This document shows positions 1,567-61,500 of a DNA stretch of 64,000 nucleotides, piece by piece. The stretch comes from Tachypleus tridentatus (Eukaryota > Arthropoda > Merostomata > Xiphosura > Limulidae). The position numbers and the translations under genes were made by a program. Within the stretch, counting starts at the first letter, position 1; each line of letters begins with the position of its first letter. The notes below the pieces were generated by a model that did no database searches, was not told the DNA's origin, and saw nothing but the letters and a program-made list of their open reading frames with translations. The DNA lies in NCBI RefSeq assembly GCF_004210375.1, contig NC_134831.1:248001-312000 (forward strand), in the 5' to 3' direction.

Positions 1567-4450
1567 AACCTTGTGACTTACTGCTAAGCCAATGAAGAGG
1601 AGCAGTCTTAGAAAAATCGTCCGTTAACATTGTCCGTTGACTTACTACTGAAAAGAGAGACTCTCCTGAAAAGTATAGCTATTCAGTAATCGTGACGTAT
1701 TTGGTCATTGACAAGAAAACTATTAATGTGATATTAAAACAATATTTCTGCTCGTGTTACGTAATTTCCGTAGTTCATATTGGTGTACAGAAGACATTTA
1801 ATACTAGAAATAAACGATCTAATAACATTAAGCTGTTTTTTATTGGACCTTCAACGTTCTACTTTACAATTTTTTTTTTATTTTCTGTTCTTATTCTAGA
1901 AGAGCTGTTAAACCTGACGCCAGTGATGGAAAATAGTCCCTTGAAACACACCCTTCAGTTCAGGCTCAAATGCAATGTTACTTACCAGCTATATCTGAAA
2001 TAAAATAGCCCTTCCTAGCTTTGTTCCCCTTAACATTGTAACTTGCTTTATGAATGTATATCTTTCTACTCGACGTTTTACCCTGGGAGCAATGCATAAA
2101 TAAAATGTAATCTGATTAATGTTGTTGTCGGCCTTTGATCTAATTCATCGACTTCTTCGGTTTAGAAACCTGGAGCCGAATCTGAGTTACTCGCGATTTA
2201 CTAGGTCGCAGTCATCTTACTACGATAGTTATTTTAAGCTTTTGGAATAAATTAAACATAGACATCAGTAGTCAAGCCTGATATAATTTTTAAAGTACAT
2301 ATCCAATAGTTAGAAGAATTGGGGTTCTACCCAGCTAATTGTAACGTTTTCTTTTAAAATACATCTTATGAAGTTTTTAGTGAAGCCTTCATTTTCGTAG
2401 AATTGTGATAAAGCTCATAATAGTTATCAGTCTAATACATTTAATTACAAAAACCTGTTTTCTGACCATGTATATTTCAAATTACCTCTAATTTTAGTTT
2501 ACTGGTATTTATTATGCTCATTAACCTCCTTTTATCTTCATAACTGCAAAATAATAGTAATAAAACAGTCAGTGTTTTCTAACTAGAGCTCTTCACGCCG
2601 TTAATCTTTGGATTAACCCTTGCGTTGTATTGTGCTGCAGGCCCTTTATCAGTGTACATGTATGCGTTGTACCCCGGAAATTACAACATATGCTAACCTT
2701 CTTTCTCTACATCTTCTTATAGACATCATTTTCTTTGGCTTTGCATTTCACACATCCCAAGGAAATTTCTAAATTTCTGATATTATATATTGAATATGTC
2801 ACACAACAACAGAAGCATGTTTTCGACAGGATAATGCTCTTTAGCAAGAGTATGAAGAGAAATCCTGGGACTTTTTCGACATTCATTGCTTTACTTCTGT
2901 AGCTCTTCACTGAAATATACCTGAGAATAAGAAAAGTAGATATCATCAAGTATTCCTTCACTTGTACAAAAGAAGTTACTCCCCATCATCACAGAAAAAT
3001 CAAAGCAGTGTTTATAGAAGCCACAAGATTTATCACATACAGGTCGTGAATACCAAACGTATAAAATATGCAGTGTATCAAGAATGACAAACAATGCACG
3101 TGATAGAAGTACGCCTGCAAATGTAGCCCGAGTGATTTTTGACCACTACGAAAAAATAAATGAAACCGTAGCAAAAACTGTAACATTGTAACAAATTGAA
3201 ATGAAAGTTGCTGCCACAGTGACAAGGTTTATAGAGCATATGGAAACAAACTTATTGGAGTAAATCTATAGAACCGTGTAAACTTTCTATATAAAAATGA
3301 AATGAAAAGTCCTACAAAGTAGTCAAATGTAACTTTCATCTATGAGGGCATGAATATCGAGCTTTTAGATAGCAAATGTAAAACAGTAAACTTTTTTTTT
3401 TTTTCAATTTAATAACGTTTATACGAAACGTACAGCAGAAAATAAGAATAATGTAAACAAACTTATTGTTGCCTGAATACATTACAGATGAAGATAATGT
3501 TTAATCCATTACTAAAATGAATAAAATTACAGTAAATTGAAAGTATTATAACTGTCCTACATGCATATATATTATAATAATAATTCATACAATCAGCCGT
3601 CTAAACTTTAAATCCAAAGTAAGGCTTTGAATTGTTTTTTGTGTTCATAATCATAACGAAAGGTGGGCAAATACAAGAGCAATATATAATTATTTTTCTG
3701 TTTAAATATTGTCATCATTTATACGTCTATTACTAGCTTTAAGCAACACCATTTCAAAATATTTACAGGCACTATATAGTTTTTTGAATAATTGAGAGCT
3801 ACATTATGTTTTTAAGCTACGTTCGGATTTATTACATACACTTTATGTGAAATCTATAGATTATCAGTACCGTAAGCTCGTTTTCTTGCTTCTTACCTTG
3901 TTTATGTAACTAGTCTTTTTTCCTTTGTTTCAAAATGTACTTGTTTAGAACTAGAAAGGTTTCAAAATGTACTTGTTTAGAACTAGAAAGTACGAAAATA
4001 TTGTGCAAAAAAAAAAAACCCAACAAAAACGCGTAACACGTTTTCGTTGAAAAACTATATTAAAATAGTTTTGCAATTAAATAAGTATCTTATATGACTC
4101 ATTTAATAGTTTTTGTTTTCAAATTAGTTACAAATAATAAACTTTTGCTATTTCTTGTATGTAATCAAACAATTTCATTAGCTTTATTTATGTAAAACAG
4201 CTGTGGAAATAAAGAAACCCGAAATACAGCTTTTTTTTTTTTTTTTACGAAAAGTAATCTCGAACTGTCCGTGTACAAAATGATAATTTTCTATGTGTTT
4301 GAAGTTACCGCTTTAGAGCCTGTGAAGTTGTAAAGCGGTGTATACGAAAACTCCACGTACGGTCCAAACATGAAAGGTACCGTTCCGTTGTATAATACAA
4401 TTTGCTTATTTTTGCAAAGTAGGGGCAGGCAAATTTTGATTGAAGTGTTT
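1567..4450. other. Intergenic, no gene seen
   Basis: AT-rich DNA with short chance reading frames only (for example 1,692-2,003 plus and 2,707-3,225 minus). None shows codon structure, domain motifs or paired splice signals that I recognise. It includes homopolymer T runs near 3,391 and 4,232 and a 32-bp duplication at 3,927. Confidence 0.55.
3927..3990. repeat. Perfect 32-bp tandem duplication
   Basis: Positions 3,927-3,958 and 3,959-3,990 are identical (unit begins GTTTCAAAATGTACTTG). The exact identity in otherwise decayed spacer suggests a recent event. Confidence 0.9.
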
Positions 4451-14218: not shown

Positions 14219-14573
14219 CTTTGACAGCATTTATATATGTAAAAACGGCTCGTTTGGGTTGAGAAATTTTTTTACATAGAGCAGCGAACAACGTTTCGAC
14301 CTTTTTCGGTCATCGTCAGGTTCACAAAGAAAGAAAGAGAAAGCTGACCACATGTTTGAACTGACAAAAAAAAATTACGTAGAGGAGCGAGCGTTTTGAC
14401 CACATGTTTGAAAGAAAGAAAGAGGTAACTGACCGGAAGCTGACCACATGTTTGAAAGGGGTTGTGTAACTGAGTGTCGGAATGTAAAACGTTTTCTCAA
14501 CCCAAACGAGCCGTTTTTACATATATATTTTTCTTTACAAGTGGGTTTTCTCGACATCACTTTGACAGCATTT
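14219..14573 (-). mobile_element. Non-autonomous Penelope-related element (retrozyme-like)
   Basis: A 327-bp unit (14,233-14,559) is flanked by a perfect 14-bp direct repeat, CTTTGACAGCATTT, at 14,219-14,232 and 14,560-14,573. Its ends are inverted copies of TGTAAAAACGGCTCGTTTGG, followed on the right by the extra tail GTGGGTTTTCTCGACATCA. Both ends match those of the 2-kb Penelope-like element at 53.4-55.4 kb, but there is no reverse transcriptase inside. It contains a 42-nt hammerhead-like fold (14,284-14,325, minus) and repeated CTGACCACATGTTTGAA segments. By analogy with retrozymes, it probably moves with the machinery of the larger element. Confidence 0.8.
14284..14325 (-). ncRNA. Hammerhead-like ribozyme motif (copy 1)
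   Basis: Read on the minus strand: GTGAAC, CTGACGAT, GACC-GAAAAA-GGTC, GAAACGTT, GTTCGC. The outer strands pair (6 bp, one G-U) and GACC/GGTC pair perfectly. The single strands match hammerhead core segments CUGANGA and GAAA in the right order, with helix III reduced to an A-U pair around CG and a GUU before stem I. One extra U after CUGACGA departs from the consensus, so activity is uncertain. Confidence 0.55.
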
Positions 14574-34474: not shown

Positions 34475-34547
34475 CCTTGGAATGGAGTTAAAATGATGAA
34501 GGCAAGCAGAACCAGTGAGAGACATGGTGGATGGTGATACAGAATGA
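34475..34547 (+). promoter_or_regulatory. Axin leader with three short uORFs
   Basis: Three AUGs precede the Axin start. uORF1 is at 34,482-34,496 (MELK). uORF2 is at 34,493-34,537 (MMKASRTSERHGGW), in frame with Axin but stopped six bases before it. uORF3 is at 34,524-34,547 (seven codons then stop). uORF1 and uORF2 overlap through ATGA, and so do uORF3 and the Axin ATG. All have a purine at -3. In known leaders this arrangement limits translation and allows reinitiation. The effect here is inferred. Confidence 0.5.
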
Positions 34548-35547
34548 GTGGTGATGTGCATGGTTTAACTCCTCTCAAGCCCGGTGAAGGGAAAGTGATT
34601 CATCATCCAGTGAGGTCCCCTGCAGATGGAGAGGATAATGAGATCCACACAACACGGAGTGAAGTGCATGAAAAGTCCACCCACAGAAACAACGATAAAG
34701 ATGTTGGATCAGTGTGTGCTGGACAGTGGACTTCGTCAAAAAAAGTTAATGTTCATAAAGGCAGCAAATATAAAACTATTGAACTTCAAAGGGATTTCAG
34801 AGAAGGGGGTTGTGAATTCTTTCACCCAGTATTTGGGTGTAGCTCTCATGAAGTGCGTGATCAACATGAGGACTATGTTTCATTAAGTGCTGATGTTACA
34901 CCACCATTTTCAAGAAGTGGAACCCCAAGTTACCTCAAGTGGGCCGAGGATCTACAGTATCTCTTGCAGGATCTGGAAGGTGTGAATCTCTTTAAAAGAT
35001 ATCTAACTCAGGATAAATGTGCAGATAGCTTGGACTTTTGGTTTGCCTGTGAAGGTCTTAAGAAAGCTAGTGCCACTGATGTAAACTACATTCAACAAGT
35101 GATTAAGTTAATATATAAAAAATTTATAAGATCTAGACTTATAGAAATTAAACCTGAAACTAGAGAAGAAATAGCCAGTAAAATTGAAAGTAAAATGGGA
35201 CTTGATCAAACAATCTTTGATGATGCTCAAAAAAACATTGAAGATATCATGACAAGGACAACATATCCAAATTTTCTTAAATCTGAAGTGTACCTTCATC
35301 ATGTTCAGTTTATGCAACAAAATGTCCACCTGGGATCACCCAAACATGCAGAAGGTTTGGAATCTATCAGTGAAAACAGCAGTGATATCTCCAGGCAAGG
35401 ACTGGATATTTTACCCACATTACATGAAGATGCTGAAATGCATGACAGTCAGAGTCAAGAGGCAATACCTTTTACCAGGGAAGTGTTGAAGCAACGGTCC
35501 AGAATAATGGGAAATGTACTTCACAATCAGCCAGAAGGGCAGGCTGG
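34544..35547 (+). CDS. Axin: Axin coding exon 1 (N-terminus and RGS)
   Basis: 1,004 nt ending at donor GGCTGG|GTATGT, with two bases carried over. It holds the whole RGS domain, from YLKWAEDLQYLL through LEGVNLFKRYL and DFWFACEGLKK to FLKSEVYLHHVQFM. A single large first coding exon through RGS is also the vertebrate Axin layout. The tankyrase motif RSPADGED is at residues 24-31. An earlier PLKPGEG lies where a first motif would be, but lacks the required arginine. Confidence 0.95.
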
Positions 35548-38500
35548 GTATGTTTTTTTCAAGCTTGACATTTATTGATAACCTCTGCATTAAATTATCT
35601 TGTGTTCACATGTATTAAATCATTATATTTTGTTTTTATTTCATGATATATTTTTGAGAAAGAAAAGTAATTTAATTTTGTTTTTTTTTTCTTGATTGTT
35701 TTGCAAGGGTATTTTTTTAAGGGGTCATAATAGAATAACTTAACCCTATCAGTATCTTTTCTCCTCCCAGTATCTTTTCTTAACCTAAATTGCATCTGTG
35801 CACAACCTACAACCAAAATAAAACTTGGGTTCCACTGCTAACCTGAAAAAACAAAACAAACAACAACAACGAAAAACTGCTTTCTTAGCCTGAATCAGAT
35901 CGGGAGACCATCTAAAACCTGAATAAAACTTGGGTTCCACTCCAATCCTGAATAAAATCTGAACACTTTTCTAAACCTGAATAGAAACTGGACAAACCTG
36001 AATCAAATTTCCATGCAATTTAAGACCTGAATAAAACTTGGGTTCCACACCTAACCTGGATATTTAAAAAAAAAAAAAAACTGAACATGTTTTCAAACCT
36101 AATTATTTTATCCAGATGTAGAACATAGAGGTACATTATAAAATGTAAATTAAAGCCATGTTTATGTTTTTGGTGCATATCTTAAAATTATGATTTCTTT
36201 TTACGTAAGGTAAAGTTAATGACAATTCTTGGCTTTAGTATAATATGTGTACTTCATAAATAAACAGTATTTCTTATCTGTGCTATAACATCAAGTTCTA
36301 ATTCTTACAGGCTGCTTGGCTAACTTTTTTTTATTGAACTTGTTAAGTTGAAATTCAAGTTTTGTTTAAATATTTCCTTTTGGATTCATAATTCATAAAG
36401 TGTCACTGGTACTTGTTGTATGACTATCTAGAAAAAAAAATGGAATTTTATAAGATGAAAGGTAATGGTTAACTCAGACTGCCTATCCTTGATTCTTGAA
36501 TTTGGGTTCTTATAAGTTTTTTCATGAGTTTGTGCCTGGGAAGCTATAACTGTAAGACAGAGGCTAAATACATTTAACAACTGTTGCCCTTTTTTTAACA
36601 GGCACTACCTACATGGAACAAGTCGAGTTCCTAAACCTTACCACATGAAGTACTCAACTGTTATCCCAACCTCTGTCCAAGATAGTGAACTTCAAAGCCT
36701 GTCATCAGATGCACAAACTGATGATACAATGTCCTTGACAGATAGCAGCAGTGTGTAAGTAAAATTCCCTATATACATGCTTATAAATGTCTTAAACATT
36801 AAAATTCACATTAAAATCCTTCAGTTCATAACTGTTAAAGAACAGTCAATCAAGTTCATAACTGTTATCTAACTCTTGTCTTATCTAGTTGAACAAGCTA
36901 CCACTAAGTTACTGTACATACCCTGCCAGTAATAAAATGTAATGAAAAAAAAACTGACAAAAGCTGTTGATTCTTAATATAACTAGCTCCAAGTCTCTTC
37001 TAGAACTTGTACAGCTCACTGTTTCTAAAGTAGTCAATTATTCAGTTGTAGTGAAAAGTCATTGCTTAGAATTTTAGCCAAGAAACCATGTGTACAACAA
37101 ATAATTTTCCCAATTTTTAAAATGTTAATCACTGGACATTTTAGTGATTTAACAGTACCTCTATCTTATGTTTTTTTTTAGTTTCTCCTAAAATATGACA
37201 TTTCTGTTGTACATTTTAGATTTTCTTATTTTAAAACTTGCAACATATTTAACTCAGACTCAGTGTTTAGGTCATCGTTTTGTGTTGTAAATTATGACAA
37301 TGGGTTAAACATAAAAACATTTCCTGAAAGATAATACTTTTGTTAACCCTACATATAACTGTGTGATATATTTAGTTCCCAAAAAAACGTTTATTTATTT
37401 TCATGTAACAGCATTGCTGTAGGAAGCAGTTTGTGGAATGGTAAGGCTAGTATCATATTGCCATTGATATGTCCCCGGAAATTGTTTGAAACTTTAATGC
37501 AATGAGATTGACCCTTGAGCCATTTTAACTACAAATACTGTAATGTATTGATTTAAAATCAGCAAGTTTTAATGCTTCTACATTTTTACTGCCATAGTAA
37601 GTAACTGCCAGGCAAAGGAATGCAGCTGTTAATTATTTGTTTTTAAGATATGTACAGATATTGTTATTGGAATAAAAGCAACTATTATCCTGTCAAAAAC
37701 CTTCAACATGGAAATTACATCATAAAATTTGTTCTGCACAAACGTATCTGCTATATTGTGGTAGCATTTCTTTCTCCTTAATAAATTATTCAATTACTTT
37801 ATTATTTAATTTTATTTTTAATCATATCTTTTAGAATAGTAGTCCACTGTGCTAAGAAATGTTTTGATTTGAGGATATAATTATTTGCCAGCAATAGAAT
37901 GCACTGGCAGTCATTTACCATGGCACTCAAATGACCAGAAGTAAATTGTCATGACACCAGTTTTAAAACCACAAGTTGTAATTATATATGCCATGTTAAA
38001 GTGGTCAGATCTTGTCTTGGCTAGCCTTTCTGCTTCCTATGACCCCCAACAGTATAGTTATAACAATAACATTTTTGAAGGTATACCATATGCATTTTCT
38101 AATAGTGGAAAAAAAAACAGTATCAATGTAACTTATTAAAGATAAAAATGTTAATATATTTTTCTTTTGGAAAAATGTTAATTATTTGAGCTTCACGTTT
38201 ATTATTTTCTATGATGTCATTTTAATGTTCTATATACTTTCTTTTTTCAGTGACTGTGGACCTACTTTACCTTCGAGAAGTCAACTAAAAAGACATCAAC
38301 AAGCAATGAAGAAAAATGCCAGTTTAAACAGGGATTTTCTAGCCCATCAAACCATAATACCTGTATGATTTATTTATATTGAAATTGTCATTGCTTTTTA
38401 AAGTGAGCACACGCACGCACACACATGCAGAAAATACCATTAGAATTTTTTTTTGTTCATTTCCAATTTCTAACCATTGAATAAATACTCATTTCACCAA

Positions 38501-53370: not shown

Positions 53371-53437
53371 AATGCCCTTCCTGTATATATATGTAAAAAC
53401 GGCTCGTTTGGGTTGAGAAAATATATTACGATGAGGA

Positions 53438-53479
53438 GCGAACAACGTTTCGACCTTCTTCGATCATCGTCAGGTTCAC
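53438..53479 (-). ncRNA. Hammerhead-like ribozyme motif (copy 2)
   Basis: The minus strand reads GTGAAC, CTGACGAT, GATC-GAAGAA-GGTC, GAAACGTT, GTTCGC over 42 nt. Stem II changes GACC to GATC compared with copy 1, turning a C-G pair into U-G and so keeping the stem. It has the same order and core as copy 1. Confidence 0.6.
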
Positions 53480-53630
53480 AAAGAAAGACGTAACTGACCG
53501 GAAGCTGACCACATGTTTGAAAGGGGTTGTGTAACTGAGTGTCGGAATGTAGAGGGTGGTGTTAGATGTTTGAATATATAATTTTATTTATTATATTTAT
53601 TTAATTTATTAATAATTATATTTTATTATA

Positions 53631-54962
53631 TTAATATAGGTATAAAGGCATTCCTTTGTATTGGTTTATTTTGGGTTTAAGTTGTATAAGTAAGGCTTTT
53701 TTAATTTTACGTTTGTTTATGTTTGTTTCTTTATTTAGTATTTGAGTGTTTTCTATGGTTATGTTGCGTTTATTTGACTCGCAGAGTTCGAAAACGTGTG
53801 AAGGTGACTTTTTGTGTTCTTTGAATCTGGTTTCCATTTTTTTCCTTGTTTCTCCAAAATAAAAGTCGTGGCAGTTATCACATTGTATTTTATAAATAAT
53901 GTTGGTGTGTTGTTTGTCACTGTAGATTTTACATAGTATAGACCTCAGTTTTGTGCCTGGTTTTTGAATAAGTTTGGTATTAACTGGAATGTCATATTTT
54001 GTTACTAGTTTTTGCCAAATGTTGGTTATTTTTCTGCTGATGTCGGGAATATATGGTATGTAGCAGTATACGGTTTCGTGAGTTTTTGATTCGTGAGATA
54101 TATTTATTTTTGTTAGTTGATTTTGCTTTCTGTTTAGGTGTGTGCATATAATGTTTTCTACGGTTTGTGGAGGAAACTTGTTGATGTTGATGAAGTATTG
54201 TTTTATTTTGTTTAATTCATCGTTAATTTTATCTGGTGAACATAGTTCTATGGTTGTGTTTATTTGGTTTCTTAGTATGTTGAGTTTTTGTTTTGTTTCA
54301 TGTGCTGAGTCCCAAGGAATGTATAGTTCAGTATGGGTTATTTTTCGGTGGATTTCTGTTTTAAATTGTATGTCGGTTCTTGTAATTTTGAGGTTAAGAA
54401 ATGATATTTGATTGCTTTCTTCCTGTTCACATGTGAAGTTAATATTGGGATGTATAGAGTTAATGTGATTGAAAAAATTAAGTAGGTGTTCTGTAGATCT
54501 GAATCTCAGTACTGTCATCTACATATCTGTACCAGTATAGTGGTGGATGTAATGCTGTGTTAATTGCTTGTGTTTAAACTTGTGTCATAAAAATATTGGC
54601 TAGAACTGGTGATACTGGGTTGCCCATGCTTAGACCATTTGTTTGTATATAGTTGTGATTGTTGAACGTGAAGTTTGTCTTCATCGTGGTGAATATTATG
54701 AGGGTTTCTAATTGCATGCTGGGAATGTCTATAGATTGGTTAGGGTCTCGGATATAGAGTTCTAAGGCTATCTTGCAGGCTTCAGTGGTTGGAACTTCTG
54801 TAAAGAGGGATATAACATCGAAACTGGCCATTAAGGCTTTATGGTTAAGTTGATTTAGATTAGACTTGAAATTAAAAGAGTCTTTGATGAATGAGCTGGC
54901 TGATGTTACATATTTAGAGAATGCCCATGCTATGTATTTACCAAGATTGTAAATAACTATTC
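53631..54962 (-). pseudogene. Penelope-like reverse transcriptase / GIY-YIG endonuclease, broken
   Basis: On the minus strand the RT palm begins near 54,960 (YNLGKYIAWAFSKYV). Motif A is ASFDVISLFTEVP near 54,830, and GLSMGNPVSPVLANIF lies near 54,620. After MTQV there is an in-frame TAA. The open sequence resumes to the catalytic YVDD near 54,520, and a frameshift follows at once. The last 295 codons (54,518 to 53,631) hold the thumb, linker and a GIY-YIG domain with IIYKIQCDNCHDFYFGETRK and ETRFKEHKK. The N-terminal part of the usual protein is missing. One nonsense change, one frameshift and the 5' truncation make this copy non-functional. Confidence 0.9.
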
Positions 54963-54979
54963 ATATGTGGACATAAGTC

Positions 54980-55391
54980 ACCTTCACACGTTTTCGAACA
55001 CTGCAAGTCAAACCCAACATAACCATAGAAAACACTCAAATACTAAATAAAGAAACAAACCTAAACAAACGCAAAATTAAAGAAACCTTACTTATACAAT
55101 TTAAATCCAAAATAAACCAATACAAAGGAACACCTTTATACCTATATTAAAAATAATAAAATAAATAATATAAAATTATATATTCAAACATCTAACACCG
55201 CCCTCTACATTCCGACACTCAGTTACACAACCCCTTTCAAACATGTGGTCAGCTTCCGGTCAGTTACGTCTTTCTTTGTGAACCTGACGATGATCGAAGA
55301 AGGTCGAAACGTTGTTCGCTCCTCATCGTAAAATATTTTCTCAACCCAAACGAGCCGTTGTTACATATATATGTGGGTTTTCTTGACATCA
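54980..55391 (+). mobile_element. Inverted second copy of the Penelope 3' end
   Basis: The plus strand here repeats, in opposite orientation, the last ~55 codons of the element's ORF (TCACCTTCACACGTTTTCGA onward, now frameshifted), its AT-rich tail and its terminal region to TCAACCCAAACGAGCCGTTG. A single 13-bp target duplication surrounds both arms, so the inverted structure was probably made in one insertion event. Confidence 0.85.
55278..55319 (+). ncRNA. Hammerhead-like ribozyme motif (copy 3)
   Basis: Plus-strand GTGAAC, CTGACGAT, GATC-GAAGAA-GGTC, GAAACGTT, GTTCGC, identical to copy 2 and lying in the opposite arm of the same element. Each strand of the element could therefore produce one motif. 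Confidence 0.6.
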
Positions 55392-55669
55392 CTGAATGCC
55401 ATTCCTGAAATACGAAAGAGAAGGCTTTTTTTTATGCTTTGAAGCATCTGGACACATGCCGTAGAAGTCCTGTCTTTCTCTTACTGATCTGCTAATCATG
55501 AAGTTCCATTGTTTGTAGACTCCTTCTAAATGCAATTATTCATTTTCTTTGATGTATTTTTACTTTATAGCGCTATAAAGTACGTTGTTTTTTAACTAGA
55601 CATTTTTCTGTTTTTAACCATTTGTTTCAAATAAATTGTTTTATTTTATTCTAACTTCAATACTGTGTG

Positions 55670-55976
55670 TCTTTTGCTTCTGGCCTGACATGGTCAGGTG
55701 GGTTAAGGCGTTCGACTCGTATTCTGAGGGTCGCGGGTTCGAATTCCCGTCGCACTAAACATGTTCGCCCTTTCAGCCGTGGGAGCGTTATAATGTGACG
55801 GTCAATCCCACTATTCGTTGGTAAAAGAATAGCCCAAGAGTTTGGCGGTGGATGATGATGGCTAGCTGCCTTCTCTCTCGTCTTACACTGCTAAATTAGA
55901 GACGGCTAGCGCAGATAGCCCTCGAATAGCTTTGCGCAAAATTCCAAAAACAAAGAAACAGACATCTTTTGCTTCT
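55670..55976 (+). repeat. SINE-A, full length with target duplication
   Basis: The best preserved full copy. The head is GGCCTGACATGGTCAGGTGG, with anticodon-loop region CTCGTATTC, B box GGGTTCGAATTCCC and body GGGAGCGTTATAATGTGACG. The tail is TTTGCGCAAAATTCC with an A-rich end. The 12-bp repeat TCTTTTGCTTCT flanks it at 55,670-55,681 and 55,965-55,976, so the element is 55,682-55,964. The tRNA ancestor may be a Thr tRNA, because most copies read CTCGTAA in the anticodon loop. Confidence 0.95.
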
Positions 55977-56612: not shown

Positions 56613-57773
56613 TATACTCTTCAAAAAAAGAAACACAAAAGGCAAAATTTGAGACAAATTGTTAACAAGTTTATTCCGGGTAGTTCTGTATGACATGTGT
56701 GAAACTTTGCACATTCACTGCTGAACATCCAAAATCTGCAAAAGCGAAGTCCACGCTCACTAGTTGACGTTTAACATCACTCAACGTCAATAACGAGTAT
56801 GACCCCCGTGAGCATCAATAACTGCTTGGCCTCTCCTGCCCATGGAAGCGATGAGATGACGAATCACATACTGTGGAATGGCTGTCCAATCAGCCTGCAA
56901 AGGTGCTTCAAGCTGAGGTAGAGTCTGCGGTTGAGGTTGTCGCCGTCGCAGACGTCAGTCCAACTCGCCCCAAAGATGTTCGATGGAGTTTAAATCTGGT
57001 GATCTGGAGGGCCAGGGAAGAACGTTGATGTTGTGGTGTCTCAAGAAGACAGTGGTGAGTCGGGCTGTGTGAGGACGGGCGTTGTCATGTTGAAAAACGT
57101 CGTTGACGTTCACCATGATGGGTTGCACATGGGGCCTAAGAATCTCGTCGACGGTTGCGTACGGTCTGATCGGAAATCCTACGCAGCCCTGGTATGGTTG
57201 AGGCAGTAGACGTCGCAGTGGTGGTCCTATCCCGAAGGTGACGTAACCGGATGTAGCGATCTTGTGCGGGCGTGGTCACACGAGGTCTGCCAGATCGTGG
57301 ACGGTCACGAGTTGATCCATGTTGTTGGTGACGATTCCATAGCCTTGTGATGGTGCTTGGGTGGACATTCACAGCTCTGGCAACATCTGATCGAGATTCG
57401 CCTGCTTCCAAGCGACCAATTGCGTTGTTGCGTTGTGCTTCAGTCAGTCTTGGCGTAACTGTATTGCGTGTCGGTGGCTTAACACTGAGCTATGGAAACC
57501 GAGAACCCGTCACTTTTATAGGGATTTTGCACATGTTGCACTTGCAGAACATGCAGATCTCTCAAACAAATTTATTGGACACGAATGCGTTTTGGCGAAA
57601 AATCCGTTGTTTTCATCCGTTTTCAAAGTGCACAACTTTTATTGTCATTTTGGTCTGACAATCAGTGCCTTAACACGTGTAACATCACATACTATGAGCT
57701 TGTAATGTTAGTACATATATTTCTCTTTAAAATAAAAAATATCCCTTTTGCGTTTCTTTTTTTGAAGAGTATA
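56613..57773 (-). mobile_element. Tc1/mariner-type transposon, internally deleted
   Basis: The ends at 56,615 and 57,771 are inverted repeats, TACTCTTCAAAAAAAGAAAC followed by RCAAAAGG. They are flanked by TA target duplications (56,613-56,614 and 57,772-57,773). The 1,157-bp element is shorter than the usual 1.3-1.7 kb because the middle of the transposase is missing. It could still be mobilised in trans, since the ends look intact. Confidence 0.93.
56787..57471 (-). pseudogene. Tc1-like transposase, middle deleted
   Basis: The N-terminal part from about 57,471 (RLTEAQRNNAIGRLEAGESR) carries the paired helix-turn-helix DNA-binding region (DVARAVNVHPSTITRLW, then a GRPR hook). After ISDQTVRNR the frame breaks. 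The sequence resumes in another frame at EILRPHVQPIM with FQHDNARPHTAR (second catalytic Asp) and SPDLNSIEHLWGELD (third acidic residue). The first catalytic Asp segment is gone. A TGA replaces the expected Arg codon after GELD, consistent with CpG decay, and the end GGHTRY matches the family. Confidence 0.9.
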
Positions 57774-58581: not shown

Positions 58582-61500
58582 GTAAGTACAGTAAAGTAAG
58601 TAACGGGGTATCAAAATAATATCGTTAAATATGCAAGTAACAGAGTGTACTATTCCAATAATAATGCAATGTGATATTGATAATACTAGTAATTGTTATC
58701 ACTGCATAAAATTAAAATTCCAAACGCTGCTGATTCAAAATAATGTCAAGTAATTTGTTTTAAAAAATGATGACTCTGGATAAATGAGTTTATTTACTTG
58801 AAGTTGAAAGTGCGTGAAAAACGACTTCTAGAGAAACTATTCTTTGTTGTGCTAATATATGCCCCGAGTCGCATTGAACACTGGAAAGGAAATGAATACA
58901 TTAGTAAGGAAAATAACATAACTCCTAAAGGAAATAAAGTATATTTTATAATGTTTCTTGTTATTTCTTATGATAATAAAAACCCTGAAAAAAGGAAGTT
59001 GTGACGTGTGTGTGTATATGTTTTCCGTTGCATGAATAATAAGACAAACACTGTTTTTGACTATGCAGATACCAAATCTGAAGTATAAAGTTACAAACCT
59101 GTTAATGTACGAGTAGTATTTCATGGTCATCAGTAACTCTGTGAGAAGTGGCTGGATTTCTGGATTCTTTAAATAAACAACAACAAATGTAATAGATGTT
59201 TGGAAGTTTTATTGGAATAAAACTTGTTTACAGACATGCAAAAGTGAATGTTTGCATAAATAAAAGACATTTTGTATCAATTACGATCGCCACAGAGTTG
59301 TGCTGCATGTAATTGTTGCAGTTTCAACTCTCTCTTCAACACTTGAGGGTGGAATTTTTATGGTTTCATCAAAACTTATTCAAAAATAGTTTTTGAAAAC
59401 ATTTTTAAGTCCATGATTATTTCATTGGTAGATAGGAGAACTTGAACAATGAGTGAAATGTATAATAGTTGGCAAACAAGTAGGCCTGATAAACCTGAAA
59501 TGCTTTATTACCATTGTTTTTTCTTAGCTATATATTCAGAATACGAGTGTATGAATAGTTGTAGTAAAGAAGACGCACATCAGTATCTGTATAATTATTT
59601 TTACAAGTTTTAGGTTCAAGACCATTTATTACTTTTATATAAATAAACTCATCTTTTGCATAATATTTTAGAAAGTAAATTATATATGTAGGGATTTTTT
59701 GTGTGTTTTGTTTAAGTCAGTTAAGACATTGTAAAACTAATTATATGAGTTATGGGGTAGGTCTTTTGTGATTACAAAAAGCTTACTTGAAGTAAAAATA
59801 TATCTCAGGATGGCTGGTATGGGTATTAAGGGTATTAACACTTTTACTAATAAAGTACAGAACAACATTTCAACCTTCTTATGTCATCTTCAGGTTAACA
59901 AAGGGTAGGTCTTTATTTTCTTACTGAACCAGAGGTCCATATTCTGAAACAATTCAGCTAATTAACTTTCAACAAGCTTTGTTTGAAGAAACATGTCACC
60001 AGGGGGCAATTTGCTGGCAGTTTAGTGCAGAAATGCAAATTCTCTCCATTTAAGAACAATTATATTGAAGTTTTCACATAAGGCACATATTATTTAACAT
60101 TAAGTTGGTTTATTCTTTTTTCTGTTCATTTTTCCTGAAAACCAACAGATTGATATATGCATTGCTTTGTTATAAAACTAAATTTAACATGAGTTTCATC
60201 CCCCACTGGGACATTGGTAAGTCTATGGATTTACAATACTAAAATCAGGGGTTTGATTCCCCTCAGTGGACACAGCAGATAGACAGATGCAGTTTTGCTA
60301 TAAGAAAAAAACACAAAAGAAGCAAGGTTCTTCCCAGAACAACAGACTCAGCATGCCCAGGTGGTTACGGCACTCAACTTCATATTCCGAGGGTTGTGGG
60401 TTTTAATCTCCATCACACCAAACATGCTTGCCCTTTCAGTCAGGGAGGTGTTATAATGTGATGGTCAGTCCTACTATTCATTGGTAAAAGAGTAGCACAA
60501 GATTTGACATTGGGTGATGATGACTAGCTACCTTCCCTCTAGTCTTATGTTGCTAAATTAGTGATGGCTAGCACAAATAGCCCCCGAGTAGCTTTGCGTG
60601 AAATTTGAAACAAACCAAACCAAAACCAGAACAGTGTATGTCCCTCTATGCTCTAAATCCAGTTTTTGTGTTTAGGCATAAATAAGAATTATGCTAGGAC
60701 CCTAAGACCAGATAATTTTATTGGGTTTCCTAGGGTACTAAAGTATTGTATAAATGTAGTATTGTCTATGGTTAGGAGTCACTTATCGTTTTATCTACAC
60801 AAATTAATAACTGTTATAATATTGAAGTACTGTTCATTTCAACATTGATACAAACTTTTCTAAACTTAATCCAGTTATGAGTGACATTAATAATGTTGTC
60901 AGTAATGAAGATGCCTGTTTAAAAAACTTCTCAGACAATCCATTATAAATAACTTGCTGATTTTCACTTCTTGAAGTATATTTCTAATATTAAGTTCATA
61001 CTTTACAAAACGTAGGTAATAGGAAAACTCATTACAGTGGTAAGAAACACATAGCCAATCTTGCTTTCAAACATCAGCGAGAGAAAGAAGCCCAGAGAAC
61101 TATATATGTTGAAGGATTTCCTCCAAACATGGATGAGTTGCAATTAAGTGACTTTTTCTCCAAGATAGGAAAAGTGAGACAAGTGATTATTGACAAGGAA
61201 ATGGTAAGAGTTTTTTGTTTCACTAAAATTGATTTGTTTTATTGTGCAAAATGAAGTATTAACTCTCTTAAGACAACCAAAAACTACAATTTCTAGCCAT
61301 AGCACCTTATCTTAGCATATCTTGTTTAGTAATGTTACTCTCCACTTGAGAGTTTAAGTGCAGGAAGGGGGAAGCTTGGTTTAATGTTTTAGCATAGATC
61401 ATTGTAGTTTTGTTGGGGAGTCGCATTTTATCGTTGTTTTTTCAATGTTCTAAAAAGTTTTTGGGGCACTCAAAATATCACAGTTTTATGATGAAGACAT

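Follow-up and report, generated by a model that had tools for sequence, protein, structure and literature searches.

Minimal hammerhead ribozymes of Penelope-like elements (PLEs) were reportedly described by Cervera and de la Pena in 2014 and by Lunse, Weinberg and Breaker in 2017; in the latter work hammerheads of this kind are said to act as dimers. Minimal type I hammerheads are known from PLEs (reviews PMC7761336, PMC6155905), where they lie in the terminal repeats in thousands of copies per genome, combine the type I order and the core with a near-absent helix III, and are described as tandem motifs. The hammerheads of metazoan retrozymes (PMC7229834) have type I order and core together with a real helix III or loop contacts, and are found in small tandem repeats. 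PAc, a Poseidon element of Anolis carolinensis, carries a hammerhead at the start of its ORF, which begins at stem II with C3 and G8 placed before the ATG, and is described in tandem repeats; in vitro, its protein can cleave either strand and extend it, and reverse transcription starts internally at two adjacent sites, with no start-site difference between the strands (PMC11167929). Animal Penelope insertions with inverted, mostly head-to-head ends, one of which has an optional tail, are also already described: in Adineta vaga the inverted pLTRs are accompanied by target duplications (8-10 bp where named) and the optional tail is 31 bp long (PMC3846280). The word hammerhead is absent from the text of the Adineta paper.

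The DNA analyzed here (the window) is a stretch of 64,000 nucleotides from Tachypleus tridentatus (NC_134831.1, positions 248,001 to 312,000). The original prediction had located in it two identical 42-nt hammerhead-like motifs, which is correct: the coordinates are right, and the two motifs, on opposite strands, do not differ in a single letter. A third core, related but slightly different, lies elsewhere in the window.

53438..53479, minus strand: first of two minimal type I hammerhead motifs; putative cut site behind GUU, 53444/53443
55278..55319, plus strand: identical copy of this minimal hammerhead motif; putative cut site 55313/55314
14290..14319, minus strand: third hammerhead core of the window, found by the core-pattern search

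The motif RNA reads, in order, GUGAAC / CUGACGA-U / GAUC-GAAGAA-GGUC / GAAA-CG-U-U / GUUCGC. Read from these letters, stem I has six pairs, one of them G-U, and stem II four pairs, one of them U-G, while helix III is reduced to one possible A-U pair around CG (GAAA-CG-UU). Type I order, CUGANGA, GAAA, A15.1-U16.1 and H17 are all present. Stems I and II would frame the CUGANGA...GAAA core, with the cut predicted after GUU. With helix III almost absent, the motif belongs to the minimal type I hammerheads of the PLE kind, which have already been described. It shares with the PLE hammerheads of the reviews the order, core and near-absent helix III, as well as its place in terminal repeats and its thousands of copies per genome; the motifs there are described in tandem whereas the present insertion has two inverted ones, and otherwise no essential difference was established. 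With the hammerheads of metazoan retrozymes it shares the type I order and core, but not the real helix III or loop contacts nor the small tandem repeats.

It does not belong to the canonical hammerhead family of the Rfam models. The covariance-model search proposed with the original prediction found no hammerhead, either in the whole window at gathering scores or in the segment 53000-55800 at E up to 10; the motif is not assigned to the canonical family because of this lack of a match, and its helix III has one possible pair instead of several. The window holds a real ribozyme-like family undetected in it by the Rfam models, whose covariation was tested in one genome with more than 12,000 copies.

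The core pattern CTGACGATN{8,30}CGAAACGTT has three matches in the window, a number reached by none of 100 dinucleotide shuffles (shuffle maximum 0). The genome searched comprises 2.17 Gb in 205 contigs. The coagulogen family PF02035, a mark of horseshoe crabs, has 19 matches in it and none in any of 14 control genomes. The genome contains 12,617 matches to this pattern (6313 + 6304), against 10 + 0 for the reversed pattern used as control, and 121 matches (54 + 67) to the exact 35-nt form of the window, for which the reversed control gives 0 + 0. Helix III interior letters other than C and G are found in 389 matches versus 71 in the control. The extra U after CUGANGA and the GUU cleavage triplet had been taken as marks of a divergent variant, a view that is not supported. 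GUU obeys the NUH rule, and the form without the extra U (CTGANGAG...CGAAACGTH) is rare, with 116 matches versus 20 in the control, many of the 116 being, by eye, one-letter variants of the main family. The U is present in all 12,617 copies found, a constancy that the search pattern itself demands. The arrangement CUGACG-AUG moreover matches that of PAc, where C3 and G8 also precede the ATG (PMC11167929). Literature searches gave no paper titled on hammerheads among the matches listed for the letters CUGACGAUG, and none on horseshoe crabs with both hammerhead and Penelope among the matches listed, which is not proof of absence.

Compensatory change among genomic copies, whose absence the original prediction had named as its own refutation, is found in both stems. 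Matches with a stem II pair changed on both sides and the core kept number 175 versus 2 in the control in a first search, and 315 versus 5 in a second one. The alignment was built from 30 loci of the first search and 40 selected stretches, drawn from 100 places listed per search, plus the window rows; the resulting 288 rows (287 in the test with slid partners) were reduced to 38 non-redundant ones less than 75% alike. Pairs 1, 2 and 3 of stem I are standard in 63, 79 and 63% of the 38 rows (40, 43 and 41% in shuffles), and pairs 2, 3 and 4 of stem II in 82, 87 and 84% (46, 49 and 66% in shuffles); pair 5 of stem II is weak (58 versus 46%) and pairs 4 and 5 of stem I show no covariation in the 38 rows. 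When the partner is slid by one to three places, pairing falls from 78/114 (68%) to at most 35% in stem I and from 96/114 (84%) to at most 54% in stem II. All three stem I pairs are kept in 16 of the 38 rows, and pairs 1-4 of stem II in 24; some of the rows look decayed. The searches required stem II pair 2 or 3 to differ but did not require it to pair, and the stem I pairs and stem II pair 4 lay outside the selection. The constancy of the core, of the first stem II pair and of ACGU is no evidence, since the searches demanded these letters. Stems I and II are real by compensatory change, the outer pairs 4 and 5 of stem I being unsupported, and layout and covariation together bear out the type I order with minimal helix III.

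The same data bear on the idea that the fold is a chance likeness, or that its letters are kept for the start of a reading frame (CTGACG-ATG...) rather than for an RNA structure. The motif does hold an ATG at the place where the PAc ORF begins (PMC11167929), but the frame in the window copies stops after 13 codons, and stem II together with its loop takes lengths between 11 and 22 nt that do not differ by multiples of three, while pairing is preserved. Chance is excluded by the reversed-pattern, shuffle and changed-stem controls. We regard this explanation, disfavoured also by the covarying stems, as extremely improbable.

The claim that the motifs sit in both arms of a Penelope-like element was borne out by the inverted arms (53385-53810 and 54975-55372), by the reverse transcriptase of a relative (locus L032) and by the pieces of protein left in the window.

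53371..53383, no strand: left copy of the target-site duplication, AATGCCCTTCCTG, 13 bp, matching the right copy at 12/13
53384..54974, minus strand: left arm, a 5'-truncated Penelope-like copy, its short-tailed 3' end at 53384 facing outward
53631..54518, minus strand: C-terminal part of the element protein, a 295-aa open stretch, 87.8% identical to L032
54511..54951, minus strand: reverse transcriptase piece, 92.5% identical to L032, interrupted by one stop and in another frame than the C-terminal part
54975..55147, plus strand: remnant of the C-terminal end of the same element protein, by its match to the L032 protein
54975..55394, plus strand: right arm, a second, shorter 5'-truncated copy with a long tail at its outer end
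55395..55407, no strand: right copy of the target-site duplication, AATGCCATTCCTG, 13 bp
14220-14232 and 14561-14573, no strand: 13-bp duplication TTTGACAGCATTT flanking the short element, coordinates derived from the duplication scoring
14233..14560, no strand: short head-to-head element that contains the third motif and whose right arm starts past it

A 510-aa frame of L032 matches RVT_1 at 2.9e-12. The window copy matches the L032 protein in two pieces of the left arm, separated by a frame change, the first of which (92.5% identity) has one stop inside. The 295-aa open stretch that makes up the second piece (53631..54518; 87.8% identity) has no Pfam match of its own. For GIY-YIG (PF01541) there was a match only below the cut-off of 22.6 bits, at E 0.002 and 18.8 bits, in a single relative among four proteins; the window copy reads YKI...YFG. 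A fold model of the window ORF had a mean pLDDT of 35.4, too low for use, and the best hit of a PDB sequence search had an E of only 0.075. Penelope-like features found are the repeated pLTR ends, the unequal tails and the target duplication. By reverse transcriptase, layout and hammerhead, the carrier is a decayed Penelope-like element.

The insertion occupies 53384-55394, and the 13-bp repeats on its two sides are identical at 12 of 13 positions. Its left arm corresponds to positions 2650-4212 of L032 and its right arm to 3817-4212; the arms meet head to head at 54974/54975, bluntly and without overlap, with both 3' ends outward. The motifs are found on both strands because one insertion consists of two 5'-truncated copies joined head to head. 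The order is not peculiar to this locus: among the first 100 motifs listed, all in the first 12.3 Mb of contig C1, the 16 neighbouring pairs closer than 5 kb are all head to head, and one pair of other order appears among the matches listed when the limit is 10 kb. By their flanks, three of the 16 close pairs listed repeat others, leaving 13. A target duplication scoring at least 10 accompanies 16 of 21 elements, while none of 300 random pairings scores above 8, and a convincing one is absent in the other five elements scored (L022, at a locus edge, was left out of this scoring). Nine of the 16 duplications are exact 13-mers, and 13 bp is the commonest length.

On C1, three head-to-head insertions are each found twice, 0.1 to 1.2 Mb apart (614039/1378845, 699442/814044 and 8509107/9748533). 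Their flanks match, in one case mirrored, and they represent segmental duplications or a duplication in the assembly.

The two ends of these insertions differ. By local alignment, each of the 24 scored elements with two tails, 21 of which are distinct, combines a long tail with a short one; the long tail has about 34 nt more and ends near CATCACTGA. The threshold of 12 used in this test was set after the outcome of an earlier, laxer one had been seen, which gave 18 of 21 one-long-one-short and three long-long elements. In the null of 400 55-mers from the window, the 99% level was 10.0 and the maximum was 20.5, which equals the long-tail score of the window element itself, a tail that the null 55-mers could include. 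Left out of the 24 were L041, whose right tail was not found, as well as L047, L049, L050 and other one-tail loci. Measured from the beginning of the motif core, the tail starts at 56 nt in 28 of 30 loci and at 46 nt in one, and one locus has none. The rule of one long and one short tail per paired insertion, in this sample, is what the present analysis adds; no description of it was found in the passages covered of the publications cited here. Together with a duplication of mostly 13 bp, it bears on the open question of how Penelope-like elements integrate.

Head-to-head arms, target duplication and unequal tails are all directly observed, and for their origin we infer the following order of steps. 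The two target strands would be cut about 13 nt apart and both cut strands would prime reverse transcription; the two cDNAs would begin at different internal sites, giving a long and a short tail, both downstream of the hammerhead; and their truncated heads would be joined. Priming on two strands, two start sites and head joining would lead to outward 3' ends, a target duplication and unequal tails. PAc offers a parallel in its two adjacent internal start sites and in both of its strands being cleaved and extended, and its hammerhead likewise lies where the ORF begins, C3 and G8 preceding the ATG; it differs in its tandem repeats, the close pairs listed here being head to head, and in showing no strand difference in start site in vitro, whereas each scored pair here uses both sites (PMC11167929). 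Adineta vaga Penelope is alike in its inverted pLTRs, head-to-head order, target duplications and optional 31-bp tail on one pLTR, its duplications of 8-10 bp where named contrasting with the mostly 13 bp found here (PMC3846280).

Inverted arms could also arise by copy-back, one cDNA folding back to copy its own tail end; for Penelope of rotifers, palindromes found at the joints led to such a proposal, with self-priming on an antisense template (PMC3846280). The arms of one pair do resemble each other, but the likeness between mates is about that seen among other members of their subfamily. Copy-back predicts equal tails, whereas all 24 scored pairs combine a long tail with a short one, which favours priming from both strands; in 16 of 21 elements it is the composite as a whole that a target duplication flanks, and in the window the joint is blunt and the arm lengths are very different. 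Copy-back is thus unlikely. Arms from different subfamilies in one pair would prove two templates; no such pair was shown among the 12 compared. L040 looked mixed but is without a clear target duplication. The identity of 72.8% for L032/L033 in the pair comparison, versus 98.5-99.4% for the BLAST arms, probably reflects a difference in arm length. We consider it highly probable that this is a minimal hammerhead in a Penelope-like pLTR, whose opposite-strand copies come from one doubly primed, head-joined insertion, and whose activity is to be expected in dimers or with protein.

The expectation concerning activity comes from the ACGU palindrome. It would let two motifs share a helix III of 4 bp, and activity is therefore expected from dimers or together with the element protein, not from a single copy. 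The original prediction that either transcript could self-cleave is doubtful on two counts: a dimer needs two sense motifs, of which each strand has one, the kind being reported active as dimers or with protein; and when the element is folded as a whole to minimum energy, the motif is hidden on either strand, each of its 42 bases being paired with the antisense motif in the opposite arm. Folding and cutting in cells, like the dimers, are inferred. For the isolated 42-mer the computed minimum-energy fold has -12.6 kcal/mol versus -8.6 for the open hammerhead, and keeps both stems with core letters also paired; the fold computed for the dimer (-26.6) does not have the form of paired hammerheads.

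A trace of cutting might be expected in element ends exactly at the predicted site. Their raw number is 90 at G1.1, compared with 18 at U1.2, 17 at C1.4 and 25 at G12, and 40 of the 90 ends were inspected individually. AAC precedes the site in 23 ends, as the loss of one GTT unit would give (of two inspected, L162 fits unit loss and L161 does not); 16 belong to one array on C6 (one inspected); 15 have CAG, and the eight inspected all share GTTC with the other arm; 11 have TGG, six of the seven inspected sharing GTT. The remaining 25 do not stand out against 18, 17 and 25. With filter BND the neighbouring G16.2 has 48 versus 46, and with both filters 21 versus 46, or versus 30 without the C6 array. 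Most of the excess at the cut site may be due to unit loss, the C6 array and letters that the two arms have in common.

The C6 array (37763195-37789845) holds 16 tail copies that start exactly at the cut site, on one strand and within 27 kb. Each is preceded by TAA, and they are part of a tandem or segmental array.

It is possible, although we hold it the less likely case, that the structure is kept to hold two RNAs together or to bind the element protein, cleavage being weak or a by-product. The end counts show no clear footprint, and inserted copies with the motif cross the cut site (the 56-nt spacing from motif to tail holds in 28 of 30 loci), so that the template of each such copy was uncut there. 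Work on PAc points both ways: hammerhead mutants insert normally and no RNA-seq reads end at the cut site, but its RNA does cut when protein is added and C3G and G8C abolish cutting (PMC11167929). The presence of the catalytic core in the motif here also speaks against this alternative. A more specific proposal, quite unlikely in our estimate, is that of a dimer device, in which two element RNAs, paired through ACGU in a common helix III, would serve both strands of a target cut about 13 nt apart, one with the long and one with the short start. This would yield head-to-head insertions that have a long tail at one end and a short one at the other, and cutting would come late or release used templates. 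Should the palindrome hold two template RNAs together, a puzzling motif would gain a purpose.

Hammerhead-like sequences of other kinds were also seen in the genome. At about 114524093-114525279 of C1 (L060 1076-2262) there is a 61-bp tandem array of 19.4 units with 93% matches, each unit of which has a hammerhead-like core CTGACGATGGAGTTTATAGATTCCGAAACGTT; it is a hammerhead satellite whose stem I is weak by eye. L103 (C6:157510287, 157510333) has two hammerhead-like cores separated by 46 bp, their stem I being of 5 bp (TAGCC/GGCTA), and another pair lies 104 bp apart in L111 (C9:161786480, 161786584); both are very small tandem units. Within the window, the tRNA-like head of a probable SINE adjoins the Penelope-like element at about 55690-55960 (by eye). 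At 56955-57489 (minus strand), two overlapping frames look by eye like a decayed Tc1/mariner-type transposase. A tRNA-like Rfam match at 60203-60270 (plus strand) is barely over threshold (29.7 bits versus 29). A 346-aa open stretch at 34538-35575 (plus strand) encodes an RGS domain (PF00615, 5.3e-23) and resembles the start of Axin.
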